DNA of 36,477 bases from a virus: the IMG/VR virus record IMGVR_UViG_3300011432_000034, positions 1 through 36,477 of that record; one strand, 5' to 3'. The notes beneath the pieces are model-generated. The model had not been told where the DNA came from. It did no database searches and saw nothing but the letters and a program-made list of their open reading frames with translations. A program made the position numbers and the translations under genes. Shown here one piece after another: positions 2,241 through 13,908 of the stretch (the stretch's first letter is position 1; the number at the start of each line of letters is the position of its first letter).

Positions 2241-2286
2241 TTAGTGCATACTTAATGATAGATCAACTTGACAGGTAGGAACTTTT

Positions 2287-2667
2287 ATGGCCGTTGGGCG
2301 TCCATCAAAATATAAACCGGAGTACTGTCGAGCGATAGTCGATAGCGCAAAGTCTGGATCTTCTATCGCAGCTTTCGCTGCAGAAGTAGGGGTTTCCCGC
2401 CATAGACTCAATGAGTGGGCGAAAAAACACAGGCAATTTCGTGACGCTATGGAGATCTCTCAAAGTATAGCTCAGAGGTTCTGGGAGTCGCGATTACATA
2501 AGGCCGCACTCGGAATTATTGAAAAGATAGATGGTATTCCATTAAAAAATCCAAACGCTTCGTTGATCATGTTTATCATGAAAAACCGATTCAGGGACGA
2601 TTACGGCGATCAGATTAGGGTCGATCAGGGCGATTTAGAATATGAGACGCCAGCAAGCCTTAGTTAA
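2287..2667 (+). CDS. terS: Terminase small subunit
   Basis: This 126-residue protein begins with GRPSKYKPEY, the usual opening of phage small terminase subunits. A helix-turn-helix-like segment follows (SIAAFAAEVGVSRHRLNEW, about residues 28-46). The rest, including AALGIIEK and MFIMKNRFRDDYGD, is typical of the family's oligomerisation region. It would bind the packaging start and load the large subunit. AGGA lies 8 bases before the ATG. The gene overlaps the large subunit by 26 bases. It opens the late operon. Confidence 0.9.
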   Translation: MAVGRPSKYKPEYCRAIVDSAKSGSSIAAFAAEVGVSRHRLNEWAKKHRQFRDAMEISQSIAQRFWESRLHKAALGIIEKIDGIPLKNPNASLIMFIMKNRFRDDYGDQIRVDQGDLEYETPASLS

Positions 2668-3910
2668 AAAAAACCCAAAACAAGTTGCCGCCTATAATTC
2701 TAGGAGTCGAAACAACTTGATCCTTGCCGGCCGCCGCGGCGGCAAGACCTATTGCATGACCGAACGCGCAATCCGCCGAATTGGCAATTCCCCAAAAATG
2801 GCAAAGATCTTTTTTGTCGGCCCAACACACGGTCATGCTGAGGAATTGTTTTGGGATCATCTGGCCATGAGGTTTAACCAACTCGGTTGGAAATATAGGC
2901 CTAGGCTATCTAAGAAGCATTATGAGCTCGCAGATAAGAGGAAGGTCTATGTGATTGGGGCCGAACGGTTTGACCTTATGCGGGGCCATGGGATCTGGCA
3001 TGTGGCATTTGATGAGATCGCCTACTTCAGAGAAGACCTATCAAAGATCTGGCGTGCCGTGCGTCCTGCCCTTTCCGATTTTAAGGGCACATCGGATTGG
3101 GGATCAACGCCTGATGGTAAGGGATCCCAGGCCTACGAGTTCTATAACCACTACAAGGGAAAGCTTGAGTGGTCATATCATCACTGGGTTACTCTTGATA
3201 ACCCCTACATGGATCCAGGAGAAATAGAGGAAGCCAAGCGTGATCTGGACGAAGTTTCCTTCAAGCAGGAGTATGAGGCGTCATGGGAAACCTTTTCTAT
3301 GCTCGCCTATTACAACTATCAGGAATCAGTTCACAGAAAGCAACAGGCACCGATTAACCCAGCCGTTCCCGTGCACATGGCGTTTGATTTCAACGTCAAC
3401 CCGACGACACTTCTTTTGTCACAGTACCAAGACCAGACTATGCGCTATGTGAAGGAATACAGCTTTAACGACTCATCAACAGAGCGAACAATTAAGTCTT
3501 TTTGTGAAGACAACCAACATTTGAAAGATTCCGTATTATTTAAGGTGCGAGGGGATGCAACGGGAGACAATCGAAAGTCAAATACTGGAAAGACTGATTA
3601 TCAGTACGTAAGGGACGTTCTTGGATATTATGGGTTCAATTATAAATATGAGGTTCGGGCATCTAACCCTGCGATCGTGGATCGTGTTAAAATCGTCAAT
3701 GGATGGTTAAAGCCGATTGCCGGTAGACACCGCGTTGAACTTGATCCAAGCTGTATTGAGCTGCACAAAGATTTTGACGGACAGAAATCGGACGGTAGGA
3801 TACCATCTCCCGAAGGAAATAGAGGACACAAAGCGGACGCAGCCGGATACGATATTTATTGGCAGTATTGCGTCGACAACCGTAAGCCAAGTGGAGTTAT
3901 ACAACTATGA
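2642..3910 (+). CDS. terL: Terminase large subunit (packaging ATPase/nuclease)
   Basis: The protein has 422 residues. The Walker A motif is G30-RRGGK-T36. Walker B is the hydrophobic strand ending in D124-E125. A coupling motif STP lies at 155-157. The C-terminal RNase H-like nuclease shows D249 (AFDFNVN), GDATGD and a final HKADAAGYD. It would cut replicated DNA and pump it through the portal. Length and order of domains are normal. The start lies inside terS, and the last codons overlap the portal start by 4 bases, so translation is probably coupled on both sides. Confidence 0.95.
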   Translation: MRRQQALVKKNPKQVAAYNSRSRNNLILAGRRGGKTYCMTERAIRRIGNSPKMAKIFFVGPTHGHAEELFWDHLAMRFNQLGWKYRPRLSKKHYELADKRKVYVIGAERFDLMRGHGIWHVAFDEIAYFREDLSKIWRAVRPALSDFKGTSDWGSTPDGKGSQAYEFYNHYKGKLEWSYHHWVTLDNPYMDPGEIEEAKRDLDEVSFKQEYEASWETFSMLAYYNYQESVHRKQQAPINPAVPVHMAFDFNVNPTTLLLSQYQDQTMRYVKEYSFNDSSTERTIKSFCEDNQHLKDSVLFKVRGDATGDNRKSNTGKTDYQYVRDVLGYYGFNYKYEVRASNPAIVDRVKIVNGWLKPIAGRHRVELDPSCIELHKDFDGQKSDGRIPSPEGNRGHKADAAGYDIYWQYCVDNRKPSGVIQL

Positions 3911-5337
3911 GCCTACGCGATGATATGGATTTAATCATCGAATATTTTAAGTCACATCGATATGACTTTTACGTAAACAACATGCTGATCGATATATTTG
4001 AGGGGAACCTTAAGCCATATGTCCTGAAGGAGTTACAAAAGACTCTTTCGGAAAAGGCTTTTGAGCAAATCAAAGATCGAATTGCACCAGTCAACGTTTT
4101 AAAAAAGATCGTCGATAAGTTATCTGCGATTTATACCGTCGCACCACAAAGAAAGATTCTAAACGGTGCGGCGAATGATCAGGATACGCTGGTTCTTTAC
4201 GAGAAGGAGATGGGGATAAATCGCGCAATGAAACAGGCGGCGTCTCTTTACTCGCTTTCTCGCTCATGCCTTCTGCAGCCATACATTAACAACGGAGTAC
4301 CTCAAGCAAGATCTGTCCCTAATGATCGGTTTTTTGTTCTCGGGCAGAATCATATTGACCCGATGAAACCGACTCACGTTGTCACATTTGAATGCTATGG
4401 TCACGATAAGTATAGATTCTATGCCTATACTGACACCGAGTTTTTGATATTTGAGATGGATAAAAATATTCGTTTCGATCTTATGGGCCAGCTAGATAAT
4501 TCCGCTGGTATTAATCCATACGGGGCGATTCCTTTTGTCTATGCTAATAGCTCTACTCTTAAGCTTTGGCCAACGCCTGATGAAACCAAAATCGCAATGA
4601 CTCTGCTGATTCCAATCCTTTTTAGCGATTTAAACTTTGCCGTGAAGTTTCAGTGTTTCTCTATGATCTACACGATAGACGTCGATAGTCAAAACCTTGT
4701 CCTTTCTCCAAACGCTATCTGGGATTTGAAATCAGACGCCACGTCTGAAACTAAGCCAGAAGTTGGACAGATAAAGCCACAGGTTGACATTGATCAGGTG
4801 TTGACCTTGATTCATTCGGAAGTAGCTCTTTGGCTTAACTCTATGGGCCTTCGCCCTGGATCTGTCGGCCAGCTCACCAAGGATAGCTTTGCCTCTGGTA
4901 TTTCTAAGTTGATTGATGAATCGGATACCTACGAGGCGCGTCTTGATCTTTCCGATTCGTTTGGGGAGATAGAGCGTCAATTCTGGGATCTTTTGATGAA
5001 CAAGATGAATCCTGTGTGGGTTTCTACAGGCCAATTGCAGGCAAATATCGATTTTGATTCCATGTCTGAAGTCTCAGTCAACTATACCTTAACACCCGCC
5101 GCACAAAACCGAGCCTCTCTTGTGCAGGAGCTCGAGGCAGAGGTTAAGGCTGGGTTTATGTCCCAAAGAATGGCTCTTAAAAAGCTATATCCTGACTACT
5201 CAGACGCTGAAATCGATGCTTTAATGTTAGAAATAAACGGCGAAAAAGAGGAGCCAGAAGATGGCGGCCAAATGGCAGAAGATGAGGCTGGAGATTCCGG
5301 AGGATCTGAGCCCGGAGCAGAGGGCGCAGCTAGCTGA
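3907..5337 (+). CDS. Portal protein
   Basis: This 476-residue protein lies directly after the large terminase. The sequence shows the usual portal layout: a helical N-terminal region, a central beta-rich part, a long helix (LTLIHSEVALWLNSMGLRP, followed by GSVGQL and ASGISKLIDESD), and a C-terminal acidic Gly/Glu tail. The segment MSQRMALKKLYPDYSDAEID is typical of siphovirus portals. It forms the dodecameric channel at the capsid vertex. The acidic tail (from about residue 450) is encoded by the stretch that overlaps the next gene by 77 bases, so its composition may partly reflect that double coding. Confidence 0.85.
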   Translation: MSLRDDMDLIIEYFKSHRYDFYVNNMLIDIFEGNLKPYVLKELQKTLSEKAFEQIKDRIAPVNVLKKIVDKLSAIYTVAPQRKILNGAANDQDTLVLYEKEMGINRAMKQAASLYSLSRSCLLQPYINNGVPQARSVPNDRFFVLGQNHIDPMKPTHVVTFECYGHDKYRFYAYTDTEFLIFEMDKNIRFDLMGQLDNSAGINPYGAIPFVYANSSTLKLWPTPDETKIAMTLLIPILFSDLNFAVKFQCFSMIYTIDVDSQNLVLSPNAIWDLKSDATSETKPEVGQIKPQVDIDQVLTLIHSEVALWLNSMGLRPGSVGQLTKDSFASGISKLIDESDTYEARLDLSDSFGEIERQFWDLLMNKMNPVWVSTGQLQANIDFDSMSEVSVNYTLTPAAQNRASLVQELEAEVKAGFMSQRMALKKLYPDYSDAEIDALMLEINGEKEEPEDGGQMAEDEAGDSGGSEPGAEGAAS

Positions 5338-5716
5338 TGACGTTATCGAATATATCGTTGACCGCACGAAAAAGGGTTACGACTGGCGCGGACGAAAATT
5401 TCCCGGCTATTCTCCCGACTATATCAAAAGCCTCGATTTCAAAATCGCCGGTAAATCAAGAAGTCGTATCGACTTAACGCTGTCTGGAGAAATGCTTGCA
5501 GATCTTAAACTCATTTCGCACAAGCCTGGCTCTCTTCTCATCGGATTTGAGGCAGGATCTGAATCTAATGCTAAAGCAGAGGGAAACATATTGGGTTCTT
5601 ACGGTGGTAGCCCTAAGCGGAGTCGCGCTAGGGATTTTCTTGGCATTACAGATCGGGACTTTCAACGAATCCTAGAGCCATACGAGATGGAGGGGGCCGG
5701 TGAGTCAGAAGAATGA
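5261..5716 (+). CDS. Phage virion morphogenesis / tail-completion protein (Mu gpG-like)
   Basis: The protein has 151 residues. The start is supported by GAGGAG seven bases before the ATG, although this places 77 bases inside the portal gene. Features typical of the morphogenesis family are WRGRKFPGYSPDYIKS, LTLSGEMLADL and the C-terminal RDFLGITDRDFQRIL. Family members act in head completion or joining of head and tail. The related protein at 5842-6333 shares the LTLxGxML core, so the phage carries two paralogues side by side. Exact step unknown. Confidence 0.7.
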   Translation: MAAKWQKMRLEIPEDLSPEQRAQLADDVIEYIVDRTKKGYDWRGRKFPGYSPDYIKSLDFKIAGKSRSRIDLTLSGEMLADLKLISHKPGSLLIGFEAGSESNAKAEGNILGSYGGSPKRSRARDFLGITDRDFQRILEPYEMEGAGESEE

Positions 5717-5858
5717 TCTGTGCACGGCTAATCTATGCTGTCCCTATTGTAAGTATGAGTACCACTGGGTTTGGCAATCTAGCAAAATTATGCTCGAATG
5801 CCCGGCTTGTAAGCAATACTTTAAAGTTGCGGAGTCTGTAGTTGGCCAACAAGACTAA
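5700..5858 (+). CDS. Small zinc-ribbon protein, 52 aa
   Basis: GTG start at 5700 with a strong purine site (GGAGGGGG) just upstream. The ORF overlaps the ends of both neighbours, 17 bases on each side, which fits a real coupled gene. Cysteines are arranged as CCPYC, about 18 residues, then CPAC, a four-cysteine zinc ribbon with an aromatic middle (YEYHWVW). Phage Mu has a small zinc-finger protein, Com, near its head genes, but I cannot show homology. A role in RNA or protein binding is inference. The gene is easily missed because of its size and GTG start. Confidence 0.7.
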   Translation: MSQKNDLCTANLCCPYCKYEYHWVWQSSKIMLECPACKQYFKVAESVVGQQD

Positions 5859-6333
5859 CATTGCGAAGGTTTTTCAAAATATCCGCAAACGATTCGATAG
5901 GGTCATTGCTGATTCCATAGAGCCGATGGGCCGCGAGGCAATTCGTCTGCTGGTAGTCCGCACCAGGCTTGGGTATGGGGTTTCGCGTCAAGAAGGTAAC
6001 CGAGGAAAGCTTAAATCCTTAAGTCCTGCCTATGTACAGTTTAGGCAGCGATATAGAAACTTATCTCCTTTTACACGGCCTAGGCGCTCAAACCTAACTC
6101 TGACTGGACAGATGCTTGATTCTATGCAAATTATAAAAGCATCAAATCGTACAGTTATTATTGGGCCTAAGGGTCGACGCAGGGATGGCGAGAATAATGA
6201 GGACATTGCCAAGTGGGTTCAAAAGGCGGGGCGTCCCTTCCTTAACATCTCTCGCACTGAGCAAATCCAACTTATTCGCTTTTATCGACGGACGTTTGGC
6301 GATCTCGCCAGAAACCGACGGTTGACATTTTAG
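5842..6333 (+). CDS. Second virion morphogenesis / minor capsid-tail protein
   Basis: This 163-residue protein uses a TTG start at 5842 with GGAG seven bases upstream. It has the layout of phage head-tail completion proteins: a helical N-terminus, TRLGYGVSRQEG, KSLSPAYVQFRQRY, NLTLTGQMLDSM, then a beta strand (TVIIGPKGR) and NEDIAKWVQKAGRPFLNIS near the end. The core resembles the gene at 5261, which suggests an old duplication. It probably works at the neck or as a tail-completion factor. The strongly basic content (many Arg) is normal for the group. Confidence 0.65.
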   Translation: MANKTNIAKVFQNIRKRFDRVIADSIEPMGREAIRLLVVRTRLGYGVSRQEGNRGKLKSLSPAYVQFRQRYRNLSPFTRPRRSNLTLTGQMLDSMQIIKASNRTVIIGPKGRRRDGENNEDIAKWVQKAGRPFLNISRTEQIQLIRFYRRTFGDLARNRRLTF

Positions 6334-6357
6334 GTACAATCAAAGGAGAATGAATTA

Positions 6358-6978
6358 ATGTCTACAAAGCCAGATCCAAATGTCCCTGGTGGGGACGATT
6401 CAGGTAAGGTTGATCCTCCTGATGAAAACCAGGATCAAAACCAACAAGACGGCAAAGTCGATTACGATGTGCACAGACGTCTTCTGGACCAACGAAAGAA
6501 GGACCAGGCGCGGATTCGCGATCTCGAGGCAGCGCAGAAAAAGCGTGAGGACGATGAGCTAAAGCGTAAGGGCGATGTTGAGAAGATGCTTGAAAACGAG
6601 CGGGCTGAAAAAGCAAAGCTTGTAGAAAAGCTAGGTCTTCACGAAGAACGTGAGAAGGCAAGGACAAAGGCTAATGCAGTGGCAAAGGCCCTGGGCAAGT
6701 TCTGGAATCCAAAGCTTGTTAACCTTGTCGATTACGAGAACGTCATTGTTGATCCTGACTCGGGCGATGTAGACGAGCTATCGGTTAAGAAAGAAGTGGA
6801 CCGCTTAAAGAAGGAATGGCCTGAACTTGTCGTTGAACGACGTAGTCCGGGTTTGCCGCCAGGCGCTCCGCCTGCTCCGCCTGAAAATGGTGGACGGGTT
6901 ACAGAGTCCAAATGGCGCTCACTCCCTCTAGCGGAAAAGAAAAAATTCAAAATTAATCAAATTGAATGGGGAGTATAA
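6358..6978 (+). CDS. Capsid scaffolding protein
   Basis: AGGAG precedes the ATG. The 206 residues are dominated by charged helix: an acidic disordered N-terminus with GGDD and QNQQD, a coiled coil from about residue 35 to 115 (RRLLDQRKKDQARIRDL, LENERAEKAKLVEKLG), a short ordered piece, a Pro-rich linker (GLPPGAPPAPPE) and a basic C-terminus. This composition, and the position directly before the major capsid protein, mark a scaffold that guides procapsid assembly and then leaves. I see no protease motif, so release without a cognate protease or cleavage by a host enzyme is possible. Confidence 0.75.
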   Translation: MSTKPDPNVPGGDDSGKVDPPDENQDQNQQDGKVDYDVHRRLLDQRKKDQARIRDLEAAQKKREDDELKRKGDVEKMLENERAEKAKLVEKLGLHEEREKARTKANAVAKALGKFWNPKLVNLVDYENVIVDPDSGDVDELSVKKEVDRLKKEWPELVVERRSPGLPPGAPPAPPENGGRVTESKWRSLPLAEKKKFKINQIEWGV

Positions 6979-6981
6979 ACT

Positions 6982-7839
6982 ATGAGTCAGACAGAACTAG
7001 CAAACGTCACTAATCAGATCCAAAAGTATTGGGCACCTTTGTTCACGGAAGAACTTAGATCCTCTTTGCTTTTGGGTTCTCTTGTTAACCGCGACTACCA
7101 AGGTCAGATCAAAAAGGGTGGAGACACCGTTCGGGTATCTCAGGTCAACGCACCTACTGGCCAGCTTTTGACCGTCGGTACCGATGCCGATGCATTTAGC
7201 CCATCGGCGATGTCAACCTCATACATCGATATCGTGGCAGATCGCCGCGCTGTTGCATCGTATGAGTTTGAAGACCTTGTTGACTTGCAAAGCCAGCTTT
7301 CTAACGAGAACCCAGCTATTATCAGTTCTCTGAAGTACGCAATGGAAAAGCAAATCAACGATTATCTTTACACCCTGGTTAATCCGTCAACGTCTTCGCC
7401 AGATCATTTGATCAACGGCATTACCGACATGAGTGCTTCTCAGCTGTCTGCTTTGCGAGTCCTTGCTGGTCAGGCAAAGTGGCCACACGATAAGCCTTGG
7501 TACGGTCTGCTTGATCCTCAGTACTATGCCGACGTGATGGATGACACCACGCTTGCATCTACTGAGTACGGTGGAAGCGATGCGCCTATGGTTGGCGGAC
7601 AGTTGGCAAAACCTCGTTTCGGCTTTATGCTGCTTGAGGACAATAGCCGATCTGCTGATTACGGCTTGTTTTTCTATCCTGATTGGTTGCACATGGTTAT
7701 GCAAAAAGAAGTCACGATCAAGGTTTCAGATCTTCACTCAAATAAGCAATTTGGGTACGTTCTGAGCGTTGACGTGGTCTTCGGTGCAGATCTTGGTATC
7801 AGCGGCGATGAAAAGCATATCAAGGTTTACAATACCTAA
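6982..7839 (+). CDS. Major capsid protein
   Basis: The 285-residue protein follows the scaffold gene by three bases. Its sequence reads like the family of capsid proteins starting with a helical segment (YWAPLFTEELRSSLLLGSLVNRDY), a beta stretch (GGDTVRVSQVNAPTG), then YEFEDLVDLQSQ and MEKQINDYLYTLV, as in P22-type/HK97-fold coat proteins of phages. The C-terminal part (YGYVL-like QFGYVLSVDVVFGADLGI) forms the typical last strands. No delta domain or cleavage site is visible, in keeping with a separate scaffold gene. Fold assignment rests on motif memory and gene order. Confidence 0.85.
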   Translation: MSQTELANVTNQIQKYWAPLFTEELRSSLLLGSLVNRDYQGQIKKGGDTVRVSQVNAPTGQLLTVGTDADAFSPSAMSTSYIDIVADRRAVASYEFEDLVDLQSQLSNENPAIISSLKYAMEKQINDYLYTLVNPSTSSPDHLINGITDMSASQLSALRVLAGQAKWPHDKPWYGLLDPQYYADVMDDTTLASTEYGGSDAPMVGGQLAKPRFGFMLLEDNSRSADYGLFFYPDWLHMVMQKEVTIKVSDLHSNKQFGYVLSVDVVFGADLGISGDEKHIKVYNT

Positions 7840-7855
7840 TTTGGAGTAAGTGCAA

Positions 7856-8073: not shown

Positions 8074-8484
8074 ATGGCAAGTTTATCCAATCACAAAACG
8101 GTCAGCGCAGCGCCGTTTTCAAACGATGTTGAAATCATCCGCGTTCAGTACGACTTTGCAAACGATGCTGGCGCGACCGGCGCTCTCGATGTTTTGACCT
8201 GTACCGAAGCTTGCGTCGTTAGATTCAAGCACGGCGTGGTCAAGACGGAATGTACTTCTGGCGGGTCTGCAACCCTGATTCTAGGATTAAGTGGTGGCGA
8301 TACCGATGCGTTCTTGGATGCAACCTCGGGCGCAGTGGCTAACCTCACTGGTTCCGCCATTATCCAGCCAGAGGCTACCAACCCAGTTTATGTAGCTGCT
8401 GCAGGTAAGATTATCCAAACTATCGGTACTGCTACATTTACCGCTGGTAAGATTGAGTATGTTTTTGAGATAATGAAGCCCTAA
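8074..8484 (+). CDS. Capsid decoration-like or head accessory protein
   Basis: The 136 residues are rich in Ala, Thr, Gly and Val with alternating hydrophobic strands (VVRFKHGVVKTE, GSATLILGLSGGDTDAFL, GKIEYVFEIMKP). This is the composition of small beta-rich head decoration proteins, and it lies two genes after the capsid protein and just before a terminator. Purines (AAGGAG) precede the ATG. The assignment comes mainly from position and composition. If right, it would be displayed on the outer capsid surface, next to the sugar-modification genes downstream. Confidence 0.5.
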   Translation: MASLSNHKTVSAAPFSNDVEIIRVQYDFANDAGATGALDVLTCTEACVVRFKHGVVKTECTSGGSATLILGLSGGDTDAFLDATSGAVANLTGSAIIQPEATNPVYVAAAGKIIQTIGTATFTAGKIEYVFEIMKP

Positions 8485-8519
8485 AACGTTTCCTTATCCA
8501 TGAGAATCTCTGAAAGAGG

Positions 8520-8557
8520 GGAGGGCCTGTAAACTGTTGCGGGCCCTTCTTTTTTTT
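8520..8557 (+). terminator. Rho-independent terminator after the head genes
   Basis: AGGGCC (8522-8527) pairs with GGCCCT (8542-8547) around a 14-base loop and is followed by TCTTTTTTTT. It separates head genes from the glycan cassette. I found no clear promoter between it and the ATG at 8572, so partial read-through probably serves the genes behind it, including the tail genes. Confidence 0.85.
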
Positions 8558-8571
8558 GTCACTATGTTCAC

Positions 8572-9318
8572 ATGAAAATCTCTTGGGTAATCCTTACATA
8601 CAATCGCGATACTAAGGTTGAAAAATCTGTTCGCCACAACATAGAAAATGCTGGCTCAGACTGGCACGAGATGGTTTGGGTTGATAACGGATCTACAGAT
8701 GGTGTGCGCGATGTGATGAAGTCTTTTAACCCAGACGTTTCTGTGCTTCACAAGGAGAATCGCGGTGTTGCTATTGGATACAATACAGGAATGGTCCTTG
8801 CTCGTGGTGATTACATTGTCATTACTGGCTGTGACATGCTCATGCCTGCTAATTGGCTGGCGACTTTTAAGGAGTATGTTACGAGAATTCCTGAAACGGG
8901 AGTTGCGTGCATGTATTCAGGACCACTTTCCTGGGTTCCTGAAAGAATCAGAGGAGAAGAGGCGATCCTTAGAGGTTTACGAGTTAGACCAGCGATGCCA
9001 ATTGGTCGAAGAATATTCAAACGTGAATTGATTAAGCACATAGGTTATTTCCATGAGGGCTTTGGTCTTTACGGTTATGATGATCTTCATTGGGGCTATA
9101 GGGCCGAGCGGGTGTGTAAAGAGCTCGGGTTGATTTATTATGTTATCCCAGATCAAATAGCCGAACACCTTGGTACAGAAGGCGTTCATGCATTTGATCA
9201 GAAGGACGAATCGAGTTACCATAAGTTTAAACAAGAGGAAGTGGCAATGGACTATAAGCAAAAGCTTTTGCAGTCATTGCAGCTTCAGGGATGGCCAAAA
9301 TTTTCCCCTTACCCATAA
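8572..9318 (+). CDS. Glycosyltransferase family 2 (GT-A)
   Basis: The protein has 248 residues. The N-terminus ISWVILTYNRD and the nucleotide-binding VDNGSTDG (37-44) are classic for GT2 enzymes. Next come NRGVAIGYNTGMVLARGDYIVI (about 63-84) and D88 in ITGCDMLM, at the place of the DxD metal site; here only one Asp is present. A C-terminal acceptor segment (GLYGYDDLHWGYR) follows. It would transfer a sugar from a nucleotide sugar to an unknown acceptor in the cytoplasm. First gene of a six-gene cassette; overlaps the next gene by 28 bases. Confidence 0.85.
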   Translation: MKISWVILTYNRDTKVEKSVRHNIENAGSDWHEMVWVDNGSTDGVRDVMKSFNPDVSVLHKENRGVAIGYNTGMVLARGDYIVITGCDMLMPANWLATFKEYVTRIPETGVACMYSGPLSWVPERIRGEEAILRGLRVRPAMPIGRRIFKRELIKHIGYFHEGFGLYGYDDLHWGYRAERVCKELGLIYYVIPDQIAEHLGTEGVHAFDQKDESSYHKFKQEEVAMDYKQKLLQSLQLQGWPKFSPYP

Positions 9319-10025
9319 AAGAGTTCAATGAGGACGGGTTCGCTCGTATTCGTGGCGTGTTCACGAAAGAGGAGGCTGATTCCATGCGCCTTGAAGCATA
9401 TGGGTGTTTAGATAAGATTGTTGGGAATGAAACAAGGCTGCAGATGGTTAATGGGCATCCATCTCTTTTATTTTGGCCAAGGAATATCTCTTCTGTGCTT
9501 GCCGGGTATGCAGACGATGACCGTATGAAGCACATTGTTAGATCGTTTCTTGGGGACGACGTTTTACAGCTTAACAATCAGGTTTACTTTCGCGAGTCAT
9601 GGGATGGGGACGAGTTTAATTGGCATCAAGATATTTGTTTTAGAACACCGCCTGAGGATTTCCCCAATATTGAAGATGGTGGTTATTTACAAACCGTAAT
9701 CGCAATTGATGAAATTCGATCTGATAACGGTGCGGTTGAGTTCATTCCAGGATCCCACAAGCTTGGGGTAATGGATCTTGTGCCAAGGGATAACAGCGAA
9801 AGGGGTCTTAGGAAGTTTGACCGTCGCGGTTGGAGCGGGGTTAAGCTAGAGGCAGACCCTGGCGATGTGATGATTTGGTCGCTTCTGGTCGTTCATGGCT
9901 CTGAGCAAAATAGATCCTTAAGAAACAGGGCGACGTATATGAACGGTTTTGCCAAGGCGTCTGCGGTTAATCCCAAGCGTTGGTTTCCGACCTATATGAA
10001 GGGCCAAGATGCAGCCATTAGATGA
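9291..10025 (+). CDS. Phytanoyl-CoA dioxygenase-like Fe(II)/2-oxoglutarate oxygenase
   Basis: The 244-residue PhyH-family protein has an iron triad visible as H112-x-D114 (WHQDICF) and H202 (VVHGSEQN), and a 2-oxoglutarate-binding Arg at 213 (NRATYMNGF). EFNEDGFARIRGVFTKEEAD at the start and FIPGSHKLG (151-159) are also typical. Members hydroxylate small molecules, sugars or lipids. Sitting between a glycosyltransferase and a methyltransferase, it probably oxidises a glycan or glycan-linked group. All catalytic residues seem intact. It overlaps both neighbours (28 and 17 bases), so the cassette is tightly coupled. Confidence 0.85.
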   Translation: MAKIFPLPIKEFNEDGFARIRGVFTKEEADSMRLEAYGCLDKIVGNETRLQMVNGHPSLLFWPRNISSVLAGYADDDRMKHIVRSFLGDDVLQLNNQVYFRESWDGDEFNWHQDICFRTPPEDFPNIEDGGYLQTVIAIDEIRSDNGAVEFIPGSHKLGVMDLVPRDNSERGLRKFDRRGWSGVKLEADPGDVMIWSLLVVHGSEQNRSLRNRATYMNGFAKASAVNPKRWFPTYMKGQDAAIR

Positions 10026-10509
10026 AATTGAGAGGCACTATGCCAACCCAGATCCATGGGGATATCAGGCAAGTCCTGCCGATGCCGAGCGAAAAGCTAC
10101 GATCCTTGATGCCCTAAATATGTTTGGGCCTTATCAGAGGGGCCTAGACATTGGCTGCGGAGAAGGCTGGATCACAAAGGATATTCCTGCAGATGAAATC
10201 CATGGGTTTGAATGCTCAAATAATGCCGCTGAAAGATTCCCGCCAAACGTCAAACGCGTGCTTAAGCCAGAGGGTAAGTATGATCTTGTGATGGCAACGG
10301 GCATTATGTATCAGCATTATAATTGGGAAAAGTTTCTGTATTTGATCAACTACCATTCGTCGCTCGATATCCTTACTTGCAACATAAAGGCATGGGAGAT
10401 CCCCATGCTCCAATCAAAGATCAAGGCACGTCAAGTAGTTGACATGGAATTTGACTACTGTCCTGGTAACGAAAGGTTCACTCAAAAGCTTAGGATATTT
10501 CAAGTTTGA
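10009..10509 (+). CDS. SAM-dependent methyltransferase (NodS-like)
   Basis: The protein has 166 residues. The opening YANPDPWGYQASPADAERKA resembles NodS-type methyltransferases, which N-methylate chitooligosaccharides. Motif I is GLDIGCGEG (45-53), followed by an acidic position after the second strand (GFECSNNA) and a motif IV-like strand YDLVMATGIMY. It is shorter than many relatives and lacks a large acceptor lid. Paired with a deacetylase gene immediately downstream, it recalls the NodB/NodS pair that frees and then methylates an amino group on a sugar; this is inference from family resemblance. Confidence 0.75.
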   Translation: MQPLDEIERHYANPDPWGYQASPADAERKATILDALNMFGPYQRGLDIGCGEGWITKDIPADEIHGFECSNNAAERFPPNVKRVLKPEGKYDLVMATGIMYQHYNWEKFLYLINYHSSLDILTCNIKAWEIPMLQSKIKARQVVDMEFDYCPGNERFTQKLRIFQV

Positions 10510-11000
10510 AGCTACTGCATAATATCGGTCCTAGATATAACAGCAATTATAATACGATCGAGGAAATCCTCGCGTACGATGGACCAATTAGCTTTGATGG
10601 GGTTTACAAGAATGTTTTTGAGCATGCCCATAGGTTGGTTGGTAAAGATATAACGTTATTTGTTATGGGTAATTATGTCGGAAAAGATAATAGCTTCGAT
10701 GTTGGGCAGCGGCCAGAAACATACTGTACATGGGACGAAATAATCAGTTTATGCGAGATTTTGCAGTGTAAGCTGGCTTGGCACACATGGTCGCATGAAA
10801 ATCTAACACTTCTCACCGATGAAGAAATCATCCGCGAAATTACTCCACCGTTTTACATGAAATCCATTGCTTATCCCTACGGCAACGTTGACTCCCGCGT
10901 CGCCAAACTCGTTGAGAAAGCTGGCTATGAGGAAGCTTGGTCAGTGACGCAAGGTGACGGATCAAGATTTCAGCGCAAAAGATCATATTTAAACTGGTGA
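10506..11000 (+). CDS. Polysaccharide deacetylase (NodB-like), possibly atypical
   Basis: TTG start at 10506 overlapping the previous stop (TTGA). The protein has 164 residues. Motif 2 is H93-TWS-H97, the metal-binding pair of carbohydrate esterase family 4, and motif 3 is AYPYG (122-126). Motif 1 reads SFDGV (29-33) where TFDDG is expected, so one of the two Asp residues is absent and activity or metal binding may differ. The protein ends soon after motif 3, shorter than full NodB domains. It would remove acetyl from an N-acetyl sugar. An inactive or differently acting member is possible. Confidence 0.7.
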   Translation: MKLLHNIGPRYNSNYNTIEEILAYDGPISFDGVYKNVFEHAHRLVGKDITLFVMGNYVGKDNSFDVGQRPETYCTWDEIISLCEILQCKLAWHTWSHENLTLLTDEEIIREITPPFYMKSIAYPYGNVDSRVAKLVEKAGYEEAWSVTQGDGSRFQRKRSYLNW

Positions 11001-11064
11001 TTTCAAAATTGCCGTGCTAGGTATATATAACAACAAATCAACTATATTTTAGGTCATTCAAATA

Positions 11065-12051
11065 ATGAAAAAGATTCTAGTACTCGCTCCGACTCCATCG
11101 GATGCAACCTCATTTTGGCGCGCATTTGGTCCGTTCTCTCAGATTAAAGATCCAAGGTTTCAAATAGATTTTAATTATATGGATCAAATCGACTGGGCAG
11201 TCCAGGCACCGCACGATATTGTTTTTGCTCAAAGGTTTTTCACTAGACAACATCAAAATGTTTTAGAGTTCGCTAAAAGTTTTAACAAGAAGATCTGGCT
11301 TGACTACGATGATCTTGTCACGGCACTGCCGAGATCAAATCCAGCCTATAAAACCTATGAAAATGACGAATCAAAACAAGCACTGGGGAAAATATTAAGG
11401 CTAGCAGATGTTATTACTGTTTCTACAGAAGACATTAAGGAGCATTTCAAAGCGCTGACTCAGGCTCCCATTAAAGTTGTCCCTAACGCTTGGCCAGATC
11501 ACTTGCTGCCATTTAATCCAAAGCCTTTTAAGAAGCATAAACGCATTTTCTGGCGCGGTGGGCCGACGCATTTTGAAGATCTTTGGAACATTAAAGAAGA
11601 ACTAAAGCAGCTGGCTTCAGATCTTCCTGATTACCAGTTTTTGTTTGTCGGGCATATGCCCTATTTTATTCCAGAGGTTATTCCTAAGGAGCAGGTTGGA
11701 TATATTGATAACCTTGGAATCGTCAAATTCTACAACGTGCTTAGAGCTATGGAGGCTGATTTGGCAATTGTTCCGCTTAATGATTCTCCATTTAATCGCT
11801 GCAAGTCGGCCATTGGTTGGCTTGAGGCGACCTTTGCAGGAGCGGCGACGGTAGCACCTGATTTTAGGGAATGGCAAAACATGGCCATTTCTCGCTATAA
11901 ATCAGGCGTTGCTGGTGATTTTAGAAACGTTGTTCTTCAAACCCTTGAGGAAGCTAAGGGACACTACGAGTTATCTTGTAAATTGATAAAAAAGTCTTTT
12001 CTCCTTTCAGAAGTTAACAAATTTCGCGTGGAGCTACTAAAAACGCTATGA
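11065..12051 (+). CDS. GT-B glycosyltransferase (GT4-like)
   Basis: The 328-residue protein begins KKILVLAPTPSDATSFWR and has two Rossmann-like halves. The linker VVPNAWPDHLLPF and the donor-side strand IFWRGGPTHFEDL resemble GT4 enzymes. DLAIVPLNDSPFNRCKSAIGWLEATFAG (about 248-275) matches the sugar-nucleotide-binding region, where an Asn/Lys/Glu cluster replaces the usual ExxxxE order. A 64-base gap with AT-rich sequence (TATATATAAC) precedes it, the only real gap in the cassette, and could hold a weak promoter. Acceptor unknown. Confidence 0.8.
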   Translation: MKKILVLAPTPSDATSFWRAFGPFSQIKDPRFQIDFNYMDQIDWAVQAPHDIVFAQRFFTRQHQNVLEFAKSFNKKIWLDYDDLVTALPRSNPAYKTYENDESKQALGKILRLADVITVSTEDIKEHFKALTQAPIKVVPNAWPDHLLPFNPKPFKKHKRIFWRGGPTHFEDLWNIKEELKQLASDLPDYQFLFVGHMPYFIPEVIPKEQVGYIDNLGIVKFYNVLRAMEADLAIVPLNDSPFNRCKSAIGWLEATFAGAATVAPDFREWQNMAISRYKSGVAGDFRNVVLQTLEEAKGHYELSCKLIKKSFLLSEVNKFRVELLKTL

Positions 12052-13073
12052 GAGTTTTAATCACCGGTAGTGCTGGATTTGTCGGATCTCACTTGGTCGA
12101 TCACTTACTGCAGAATACCGATTGGGACATTATAGGGATCGACTCATTTAAGCACCGAGGGGACGCAATCCGTGTTGTGGATAACTCCCGCTATAAGATC
12201 ATTTGCTCGGATCTTTCTGCCCCTATTAGCGCTCGGATCATGGGGCAGATCGGGGATGTTGACTATGTTATCAATATGGCATCTGAGAGCCATGTGGATC
12301 GCTCTATTGAGGATCCGGTATCATTCATCCAAAACAATGTAAATCTAGCCTTACATGTGTTTGAGGCTTGCCGCGTTTGGAAGCCAAAGCATATCGTTCA
12401 AATCTCCACCGATGAAGTCTATGGTCCTGCGCCAGAGGGAAAGGATCATACCGAGTGGTCGGAGATCTTACCCTCAAATCCCTACTCTGCATCCAAGGCA
12501 TCCCAAGAAGCGATAGCGATATCGTACTGGCGCACCTATGGCCTGCCTATTACGATCACAAACACGATGAACATGATCGGAGAACGGCAAGATCCTGAAA
12601 AATATGTTCCAAAGATCATATCTGCCGTTGTTAACGGTAAGCTATTAACTGTGCACGGTAATCGGAGCTATATTGGCAAAAGGCATTATCTTCACGCCAG
12701 AAATCACGCCGATGCTCTTTTATATCTTTTGGAGAATACAGAGCCTTCCCTTTATACAGATTCCTCCAATGAGGGATTCGGCCTTTATGGTTATAATGAG
12801 ATTGTCCCAAAGCCCTCGCGCTACAACATCGTCGGGGACGTTGAGCTAAATAATTTGGAAATTGCCAAATGGGTCGCAGAATTTGTCGGTAAGCCTCTAA
12901 ATTTTGAGCTCGTTGACTTTCATGCCATGACTACTCGTCCTGGGCACGATAGGCGATATTCCCTTTGCGGTAAAAAGCTTCGTGATTTAGGATGGAATGC
13001 ACCAGTATCCCTATATCAATCGCTTGAGAACACGGTAAAATGGTACTTAGACAACCCTCACTGGCTAAGGTAG
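12048..13073 (+). CDS. RmlB-like dTDP-glucose 4,6-dehydratase / NAD-sugar epimerase
   Basis: The protein has 341 residues in the extended SDR family. NAD-binding G7-SAG-F-VG13; MASESHVDRSI (78-87); catalytic T121-D-E123 in STDEVYG; Y146-xxx-K150 in NPYSASK; and a C-terminal RPGHDRRY typical of RmlB. The Thr-Asp-Glu triplet points to a dehydratase rather than a simple epimerase. It would make a 4-keto-6-deoxy nucleotide sugar for the two transferases upstream. It overlaps the GT-B gene by 4 bases and is followed after 10 bases by a structural gene, so the cassette lies inside the late operon. Confidence 0.9.
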   Translation: MRVLITGSAGFVGSHLVDHLLQNTDWDIIGIDSFKHRGDAIRVVDNSRYKIICSDLSAPISARIMGQIGDVDYVINMASESHVDRSIEDPVSFIQNNVNLALHVFEACRVWKPKHIVQISTDEVYGPAPEGKDHTEWSEILPSNPYSASKASQEAIAISYWRTYGLPITITNTMNMIGERQDPEKYVPKIISAVVNGKLLTVHGNRSYIGKRHYLHARNHADALLYLLENTEPSLYTDSSNEGFGLYGYNEIVPKPSRYNIVGDVELNNLEIAKWVAEFVGKPLNFELVDFHAMTTRPGHDRRYSLCGKKLRDLGWNAPVSLYQSLENTVKWYLDNPHWLR

Positions 13074-13083
13074 GCCTAAAAAA

Positions 13084-13908
13084 ATGCGATACACCCAACG
13101 CGTAATCTATAACGGTTCTGATATTTCTAAAGAGATTAACGATTTTCGTAGTGGAACAAGCGTTATTCCGGTAACAACCAGTCAATATCTCTATATTGGC
13201 TCAGAAGTTCCTTTTAACAATCTTTGGATTGACGTAGCAGTTCCCAACGCAGAAACATCGGCTCTTACTCCTTACATCTGGTTTGGCAATGAATGGGTTG
13301 TCGCTGTTGATATTGACGATGAAACGAAATCATCTGGCGTTACCCTTGCCCAGGACGGTCGCCTTAATTTTATGACCGATCGGCTTAAGGGTTGGGATAT
13401 AGAGCAAACGACCGAGGATGTCTCAGGCCTTACCAGTTTCAAGATCTATAACATGTACTGGATTCGTCTTGCGGTGTCTGCAAACTTGAGCTCAACGACG
13501 GCGATTAAATATATTGGCCAGAAGTTCTCAAACGATGCCGACCTTTACTCCCTCTATCCCGACCTACAAAATCAAAATCTCATGACTGCCTTTTCCTCTG
13601 GAAAGCAGAGTTGGGAGGAGCAAGCCTACATTGCGGCTGAACAGATCATTATGGATCTAATCGCTCGTAATTTGATTCAGTCTCGCGGCCAAGTCCTTGA
13701 CTGGCGCGTGTTTCAGAACCCCTCGATCCATAAGGTTGCTGAGATCTGTTTTGGCGGGATGGGAAAGGCCTACGAGGAAAGAAAAAAGGACGCTCATGCA
13801 GCCTATAAAGAGGCAATGAACGTTAAAAACTTTAGGCTGGACGAGAATAAGGACGGAAAACTCTCTGGGCCAGAAAAAAGGTCATCGACGGTGTTTCTCA
13901 GACGATGA
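13084..13908 (+). CDS. Head-tail adaptor protein with C-terminal EF-hand-like loop
   Basis: The 274-residue protein has an N-terminal beta-rich half (to about residue 160) with YLYIGSEVPFNNLWIDV, as seen in several phage connector proteins. The C-terminal half is helical (WEEQAYIAAEQIIMDLIAR, then a gap, then GMGKAYEERKKDAHAAYKEA), like gp6-type head-tail connectors. At 253-264 the sequence DENKDGKLSGPE fits a calcium-binding EF-hand loop (D1, N3, D5, G6, L8, E12). It would form the ring under the portal. Calcium use is inference. It overlaps the next gene as ATGA. Confidence 0.6.
   Translation: MRYTQRVIYNGSDISKEINDFRSGTSVIPVTTSQYLYIGSEVPFNNLWIDVAVPNAETSALTPYIWFGNEWVVAVDIDDETKSSGVTLAQDGRLNFMTDRLKGWDIEQTTEDVSGLTSFKIYNMYWIRLAVSANLSSTTAIKYIGQKFSNDADLYSLYPDLQNQNLMTAFSSGKQSWEEQAYIAAEQIIMDLIARNLIQSRGQVLDWRVFQNPSIHKVAEICFGGMGKAYEERKKDAHAAYKEAMNVKNFRLDENKDGKLSGPEKRSSTVFLRR

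Follow-up and report, generated by a model that had tools for sequence, protein, structure and literature searches.

A cassette of six glycan genes behind the capsid genes of a siphovirus-like phage, and its possible role in glycosylation of the virion

IMG/VR virus record IMGVR_UViG_3300011432_000034 is a stretch of 36,477 bases, all of which was analysed here (the window). Gene annotation gave a siphovirus-like late operon in the order TerS, TerL, portal, a scaffold-like gene, the major capsid protein (MCP), a conserved small gene, a decoration-like gene, a cassette of glycan genes, a conserved downstream gene, tail genes and the tape measure protein. The cassette, which is the subject of this study, spans positions 8572-13073 and is made up of six intact open reading frames (ORFs) on the plus strand, at exactly the coordinates where an initial inspection of the letters (the sequence-only reading) had placed six glycan genes. 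They encode a GT2 glycosyltransferase, a PhyH dioxygenase, a NodS-like methyltransferase (MT), a NodB-like deacetylase, a GT-B-like transferase and an RmlB-like dehydratase, in that order. The genes overlap as tightly as that reading had noted, by 28, 17, 4, and 4 base pairs (bp), with a single gap of 64 bp between NodB and the GT-B-like gene.

The first gene (8572-9318) encodes a 248-residue GT2-family glycosyltransferase (Pfam Glycos_transf_2, 3e-17), and members of its family that are 43-68% identical were found in capsid/packaging operons of other phages. The second product is a 244-residue Fe(II)/2-oxoglutarate dioxygenase of the PhyH family (9291-10025; Pfam PhyH, 5e-25). It keeps the iron triad HxD...H and the Arg that binds 2-oxoglutarate, with H112, D114, H202, and R213 invariant among homologues, and it has a weak match to EvdO2. 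Antibiotic pathways are known to include PhyH-type enzymes with sugar substrates. The third gene (10009-10509) encodes a class I S-adenosylmethionine (SAM) methyltransferase of 166 residues (Pfam Methyltransf_23, 7e-5). The label NodS-like that it had been given stands as far as the methyltransferase is concerned, but the likeness to NodS is weak, as the match to the NCBIfam NodS model (E 0.003) reached 17.3 bits against an equivalog cut-off of 300; a distant bacterial relative of the MT (L044) matches Pfam NodS at 7.5e-9.

The fourth gene (10506-11000), which starts with TTG, encodes a 164-residue NodB-like protein of the CE4 fold (Pfam Polysacc_deac_1, 1.8e-8). The fold is supported by an AlphaFold2 model with a pLDDT of 95.9, and the best PDB matches include the CE4 deacetylases BC0361, PplD, IcaB, and PgaB. 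The metal-binding histidines of motif 2 (H-x3-H), H93 and H97, are invariant in 19 homologues, as is D31. The Asp-Asp of motif 1 (TFDD) is replaced by FDG in all 19 homologues, such that the first Asp is retained and the second is a Gly. In alignments this FDG falls on FDD or FDN of solved structures, and the CE4 protein 2j13 has FDN at this position. From sequence and model, deacetylase activity is predicted despite the altered motif 1, which makes it likely but not certain. The fifth product (11065-12051, 328 residues) was assigned as a GT-B-like glycosyltransferase by PHROG 7162 (1.8e-27) and gave no match in Pfam. The last gene (12048-13073) encodes a 341-residue RmlB-like nucleotide-sugar 4,6-dehydratase (Pfam Epimerase, 6.7e-48; dTDP-glucose 4,6-dehydratases in the PDB, 5e-51) with the catalytic Asp-Glu and YxxxK motifs in place (STDEVYG and YSASK). 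Its match to TIGR01181, the dTDP-glucose 4,6-dehydratase model, has an E-value of 1.9e-72, but its 244 bits fall short of the 365 set as equivalog cut-off. Taken together, family support is good for the GT2, PhyH, NodB-like, and short-chain dehydratase proteins, moderate for the GT-B-like protein, and weak for the NodS label. No transmembrane-like segment was found in any of the six proteins.

The sequence-only reading had called this combination of genes unusual, yet part of it recurs among phages. A survey with PhyH alone as the query returned 64 viral loci, some of them near-duplicates, which leaves fewer independent cases. MT and NodB adjoin PhyH in 57 of the 64, and the three genes are a recurrent phage module and a conserved one inside the cassette. 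The order is MT-NodB-PhyH in 49 of these loci, the same with an RmlB-like gene in front in five, PhyH-MT-NodB-GT in two, and like that of the window in one. Five of the remaining seven loci are cut by a contig end, NodB lies further off on the contig of L151, and L042 is left. The reading frames of MT and NodB share 1-20 bp in every phage locus measured, and 4 bp in the bacterial ones. A GT2 family of about 206 residues travels with the module in 57 surveyed loci (within L130-L188), with a Pfam GT2 match in L020; in L130 it stands where the window has its own GT2. A second type of deacetylase joins the module in L018, where the sequence at 8499-11141, behind MT-NodB, reads as a GT-like gene, a PIG-L-type deacetylase-like gene, and an ATP-grasp-like protein. 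In open-licence papers we found no description of phage modules that combine PhyH with a deacetylase or a glycosyltransferase. A search for the PhyH family in 198 genomes of one bacterial phylum at E ≤ 1e-40, made with no positive control, found none.

A parallel to the enzyme set is the NodC-NodB-NodS series of Nod-factor synthesis, which also pairs a GT2 and a CE4 deacetylase with a methyltransferase that could act on the freed amine. By analogy with NodB and NodS, where an amine is exposed and then methylated, the succession of NodB and MT would be chemically sensible. The window differs in that its GT2 is a small (248 residues), soluble protein, unlike a chitin synthase of the membrane, its MT and deacetylase are distant relatives, and it has a dioxygenase in addition. 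No counterpart of the Nod-factor acyltransferase NodA is among the six genes.

The sequence-only reading had placed the cassette between head and connector genes. The head side was borne out by the MCP (6982-7839, plus strand), which matches phrog_267, major head protein, at 7.4e-12. The label connector for the gene at 13084-13908 (plus strand) derives from its position, as neither Pfam nor PHROG gave a family match. Between MCP and cassette lies the 136-residue decoration-like protein (8074-8484, plus strand), for which Pfam and PHROG profile searches likewise returned no family match and the structure model is of low confidence (pLDDT 47). Its putative function follows from position, and homologues stand behind the MCP in L025 and L050-L057. 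Both the MCP and this protein are candidate acceptors of a glycan. Rfam and tRNA searches of the window were empty, and repeats around the cassette amounted to short matches with no visible boundary of a mobile element.

A scan of viral contigs with TerL found no relative, but a later scan with the MCP did yield relatives. L025 is a collinear sibling with scaffold, MCP, decoration gene, and then all six cassette genes. FastTree paired it with the window in all four gene trees, and their cassettes therefore share recent ancestry. Between the two, nonsynonymous divergence (pN 0.13-0.40) is far below synonymous divergence (pS 0.72-0.87, saturated or nearly so) in all six genes, which are under purifying selection. 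The other relatives, L050-L057, have MCPs 38-65% identical to that of the window and share the order portal, two small genes, scaffold, MCP, in some cases a small gene, decoration gene, and then a slot. After the slot, where the contig reaches that far, come the homologue of 13084-13908 and tail genes. L051, L056, and L057, of which L056 and L057 are nearly identical, have nothing in the slot, and the 13084 homologue, which marks its right edge, follows the decoration gene directly. Other genes fill the slot in L050, L052, L053, and L055, with the 13084 homologue behind the cargo in the last three; the contig of L054 ends before the slot content can be read. The cargo of L050 matches a YadA stalk (1.8e-9), DUF2793 (1.9e-15), PHROG head decoration (4.4e-6), and PHROG structural protein (3.9e-21), that of L055 is laminin-G/lectin-like (2.3e-4), and those of L052 and L053 are tail-fibre-like with weak matches. 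Thus, the slot is variable and takes virion-appendage-like genes, and in the window and L025 it takes the glycan cassette. A comparison of relatives with and without the cassette had been put forward as a check on its role, and this outcome supports a role at the virion. Separately, the window encodes at 327-2234, on the minus strand beside TerS, a 635-residue homologue of the L055 slot protein (37% identity over 464 residues).

The cassette had also been said to follow a terminator. An intrinsic terminator does lie between the decoration-like gene and GT2 at about 8514-8557 on the plus strand, a strong hairpin with a U-tract (z = -4.28 against shuffled sequences) that a consensus scan overlooked. 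Comparable hairpins were detected 3' of the MCP or decoration genes in L025, L014, and L015. Since L051, with nothing in its slot, has a hairpin and T-run at the same place too, the terminator looks ancestral to the backbone and older than the cassette. Read-through past it would hold enzyme levels low, so that capsid proteins would far outnumber the enzymes.

Related cassettes were also found in other backbones. Caudoviricetes sp. ctQWt234 (MW202801.1; L014), annotated as a podovirus, carries GT2-PhyH-MT-NodB-GT in the order of the window behind its MCP, separated from it by one small gene and a gene for a radical SAM enzyme. It differs from the window by its podovirus-type backbone, the extra gene, and the absence of RmlB; its cassette is annotated, and we found no described function for it. 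The extra gene (19640-20704 of L014) encodes a radical SAM/SPASM enzyme that could tailor the sugar, or a peptide, in one more step. In L015 the MCP is followed at once by GT2-NodB-GT, and in L130 a GT2 of another family precedes PhyH-MT-NodB-GT behind a capsid-like gene and one small gene. RmlB is missing from L015 and L130 as well, and relatives of the GT-B-like protein hold the same cassette position in all three and in L025. GT2, PhyH, MT, and NodB are 44-60% identical across the window, L014, L015, and L130 where homologous, and GT-B is more divergent at about 25%. BLAST detected no similarity to the window for the MCP, TerL, and portal of L014 or for the MCP of L015. TerL of L130 is weakly similar to that of the window; its MCP is 28% identical to that of L014, and these two cases are therefore not fully independent. 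Judged by these sequences, the cassette moved between phages with very different backbones.

We think it rather probable, from the gene content and placement described, that the cassette encodes a soluble cytoplasmic pathway making a de-N-acetylated, methylated, and oxidised sugar that is placed on a head protein of the virion, either the major capsid or the decoration protein. Because all six proteins look soluble, the acceptor would most simply be a cytoplasmic protein, and the virion is indicated by the appendage slot and by the location downstream of capsid genes. The genes would be expressed late and the pathway would run wholly in the cytoplasm. The RmlB-like enzyme would give a 4-keto-6-deoxy nucleotide sugar, completed by host or later enzymes, and one or two sugars would be transferred to the structural protein by one or both of the glycosyltransferases that the cassette encodes, the GT2 (by Pfam) and the GT-B-like enzyme (by PHROG). 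NodB would remove the N-acetyl group from an amino sugar, MT would methylate the freed amine or a hydroxyl, and PhyH would oxidise the sugar or its methyl group. The sequence-only reading had a 6-deoxy sugar being made and attached and an amino sugar deacetylated, methylated, and hydroxylated, and this series is plausible; the score of the RmlB-like protein below its equivalog cut-off, the cassettes that lack RmlB, and the missing second Asp in motif 1 of NodB weaken the case for it. The cassette would be a cargo module in the appendage slot of this lineage that has spread to very different backbones.

To our knowledge, few phages have documented glycosylation of their particles, and in those cases glycosyltransferases are involved. 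In mycobacteriophages, PMC12619734 and PMC12363180 attribute glycans on capsid and tail-tube proteins to phage glycosyltransferases, as in Che8, Corndog, and Myrna (Freeman et al., 2023, via these sources). Compared with those systems as described there, the window, known here from its genes, has a deacetylase, a methyltransferase, a dioxygenase, and a dehydratase that move as a unit into a capsid-adjacent slot.

Several observations weigh against such a role at the capsid. GT2 with MT and NodB lies behind TerL in L028 and L029, the GT2 is also behind TerL in L032 and before TerL in L026, and larger phages have related genes 12-15 kb from TerL, near replication genes. Since related genes lie elsewhere in several phages, a capsid-only role is not general. 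In small genomes, the chance of placement in the structural region is sizeable, the appendages encoded in the slots of sister phages may sit on the tail and not on the head, and a comparison of MCP and decoration proteins with and without the cassette showed no acceptor site or cassette-specific residue. In L029, genes for an RmlB-like protein (60% identical), a GT-B-like protein, and a DNA methyltransferase were seen upstream of TerL (2271-7840), on the other side of TerL from the GT2-MT-NodB genes.

The sequence-only reading had left the choice between the virion and the host surface open. Remodelling of the host surface, in which an O-antigen, capsule, or host glycoprotein is altered in infection to block superinfection or help release, is the main rival, and we consider it rather unlikely. 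It stays alive because of the bacterial relatives, in which the NodB family forms the first domain of NodB-GT2 proteins preceded by MT. These MT-[NodB-GT2] genes are located in clusters for O-antigen or capsule of the ABC type (Wzt/Wzm), directly behind Wzt in L045 and L049, which suggests that the MT-NodB pair acts on polysaccharide sugars in cells. They share with the cassette the MT-NodB order, the 4-bp overlap, and the FDG[VI]Y motif of NodB; they differ in the fusion of NodB to GT2 and in the presence of an export system, and no PhyH of the cassette family stood beside the bacterial MT-NodB loci examined. In cyanobacterial L044 (9848-13981) the fusion is NodB-GT2-GT41; GT41 is the O-GlcNAc transferase family, which acts on proteins. 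The module also occurs among other sugar genes in larger phages (L020). What makes the host surface less likely is that, unlike phage gtr O-antigen conversion, in which phage glycosyltransferases could also modify surface glycans, the cassette has no flippase and no lipid-linked or integral-membrane transferase. The repeated location behind capsid genes and the placement in an appendage slot favour the virion.

It is also improbable, in our estimate, that the pathway serves another intracellular acceptor (a tail protein, the scaffold, or a host protein) or a soluble metabolite and that the capsid position merely reflects a site behind a terminator where insertions are tolerated. Such tolerance is clear from the slot, which is empty or holds several unrelated cargoes, and the lack of a visible acceptor motif fits such a view, but the cargoes of relatives resemble virion appendages and the cassette stands behind MCP genes in other backbones. 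Hypermodification of DNA, with the enzymes building a sugar on a phage base, is disfavoured as very unlikely: phage glycosyltransferases do this elsewhere (Pyle 2024, as cited in PMC12619734) and some larger phages have the module close to RecA- and polymerase-like genes, but the window, like nearly all related records tested, has no thymidylate-synthase-like hydroxymethylase, TET/JBP, or C5 DNA methylase. We give equally little credence to a NodB-like protein that is itself a capsid component and deacetylates host surface glycans, as proposed for the HFTV1 turret deacetylase (PMC12494034), a CE4-like domain also encoded in a capsid context and matched by Foldseek (8qpg, E 1.5e-3), since the turret is a virion protein with carbohydrate-binding and attachment parts, whereas NodB of the window is a bare, single-domain, cytoplasmic-type enzyme; its gene constantly overlaps that of a SAM methyltransferase, and the enzymes encoded next to it, which use 2-oxoglutarate or nucleotide sugars, depend on cofactors of the cytoplasm.

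Glycosylation of the virion is thus strengthened, not proven. A bolder form of it, which we offer tentatively, is that the cassette is a mobile, self-contained capsid-coat island, in which MT-NodB-PhyH with interchangeable glycosyltransferases might equip phage heads with an N-methylated, oxidised amino sugar not described before, in place of the protein appendages of related phages. If so, one and the same place in the genome would be open to either of two solutions, a protein appendage or a sugar. Should the virion reading as such hold, many environmental phages would be furnished with a portable route to an elaborate glycan on the head, the slot would swap between protein appendages and sugar chemistry, attention would fall on unusual enzymes such as a compact NodB with an altered motif 1 and a sugar-linked PhyH, and why phages decorate their heads would become a testable question.

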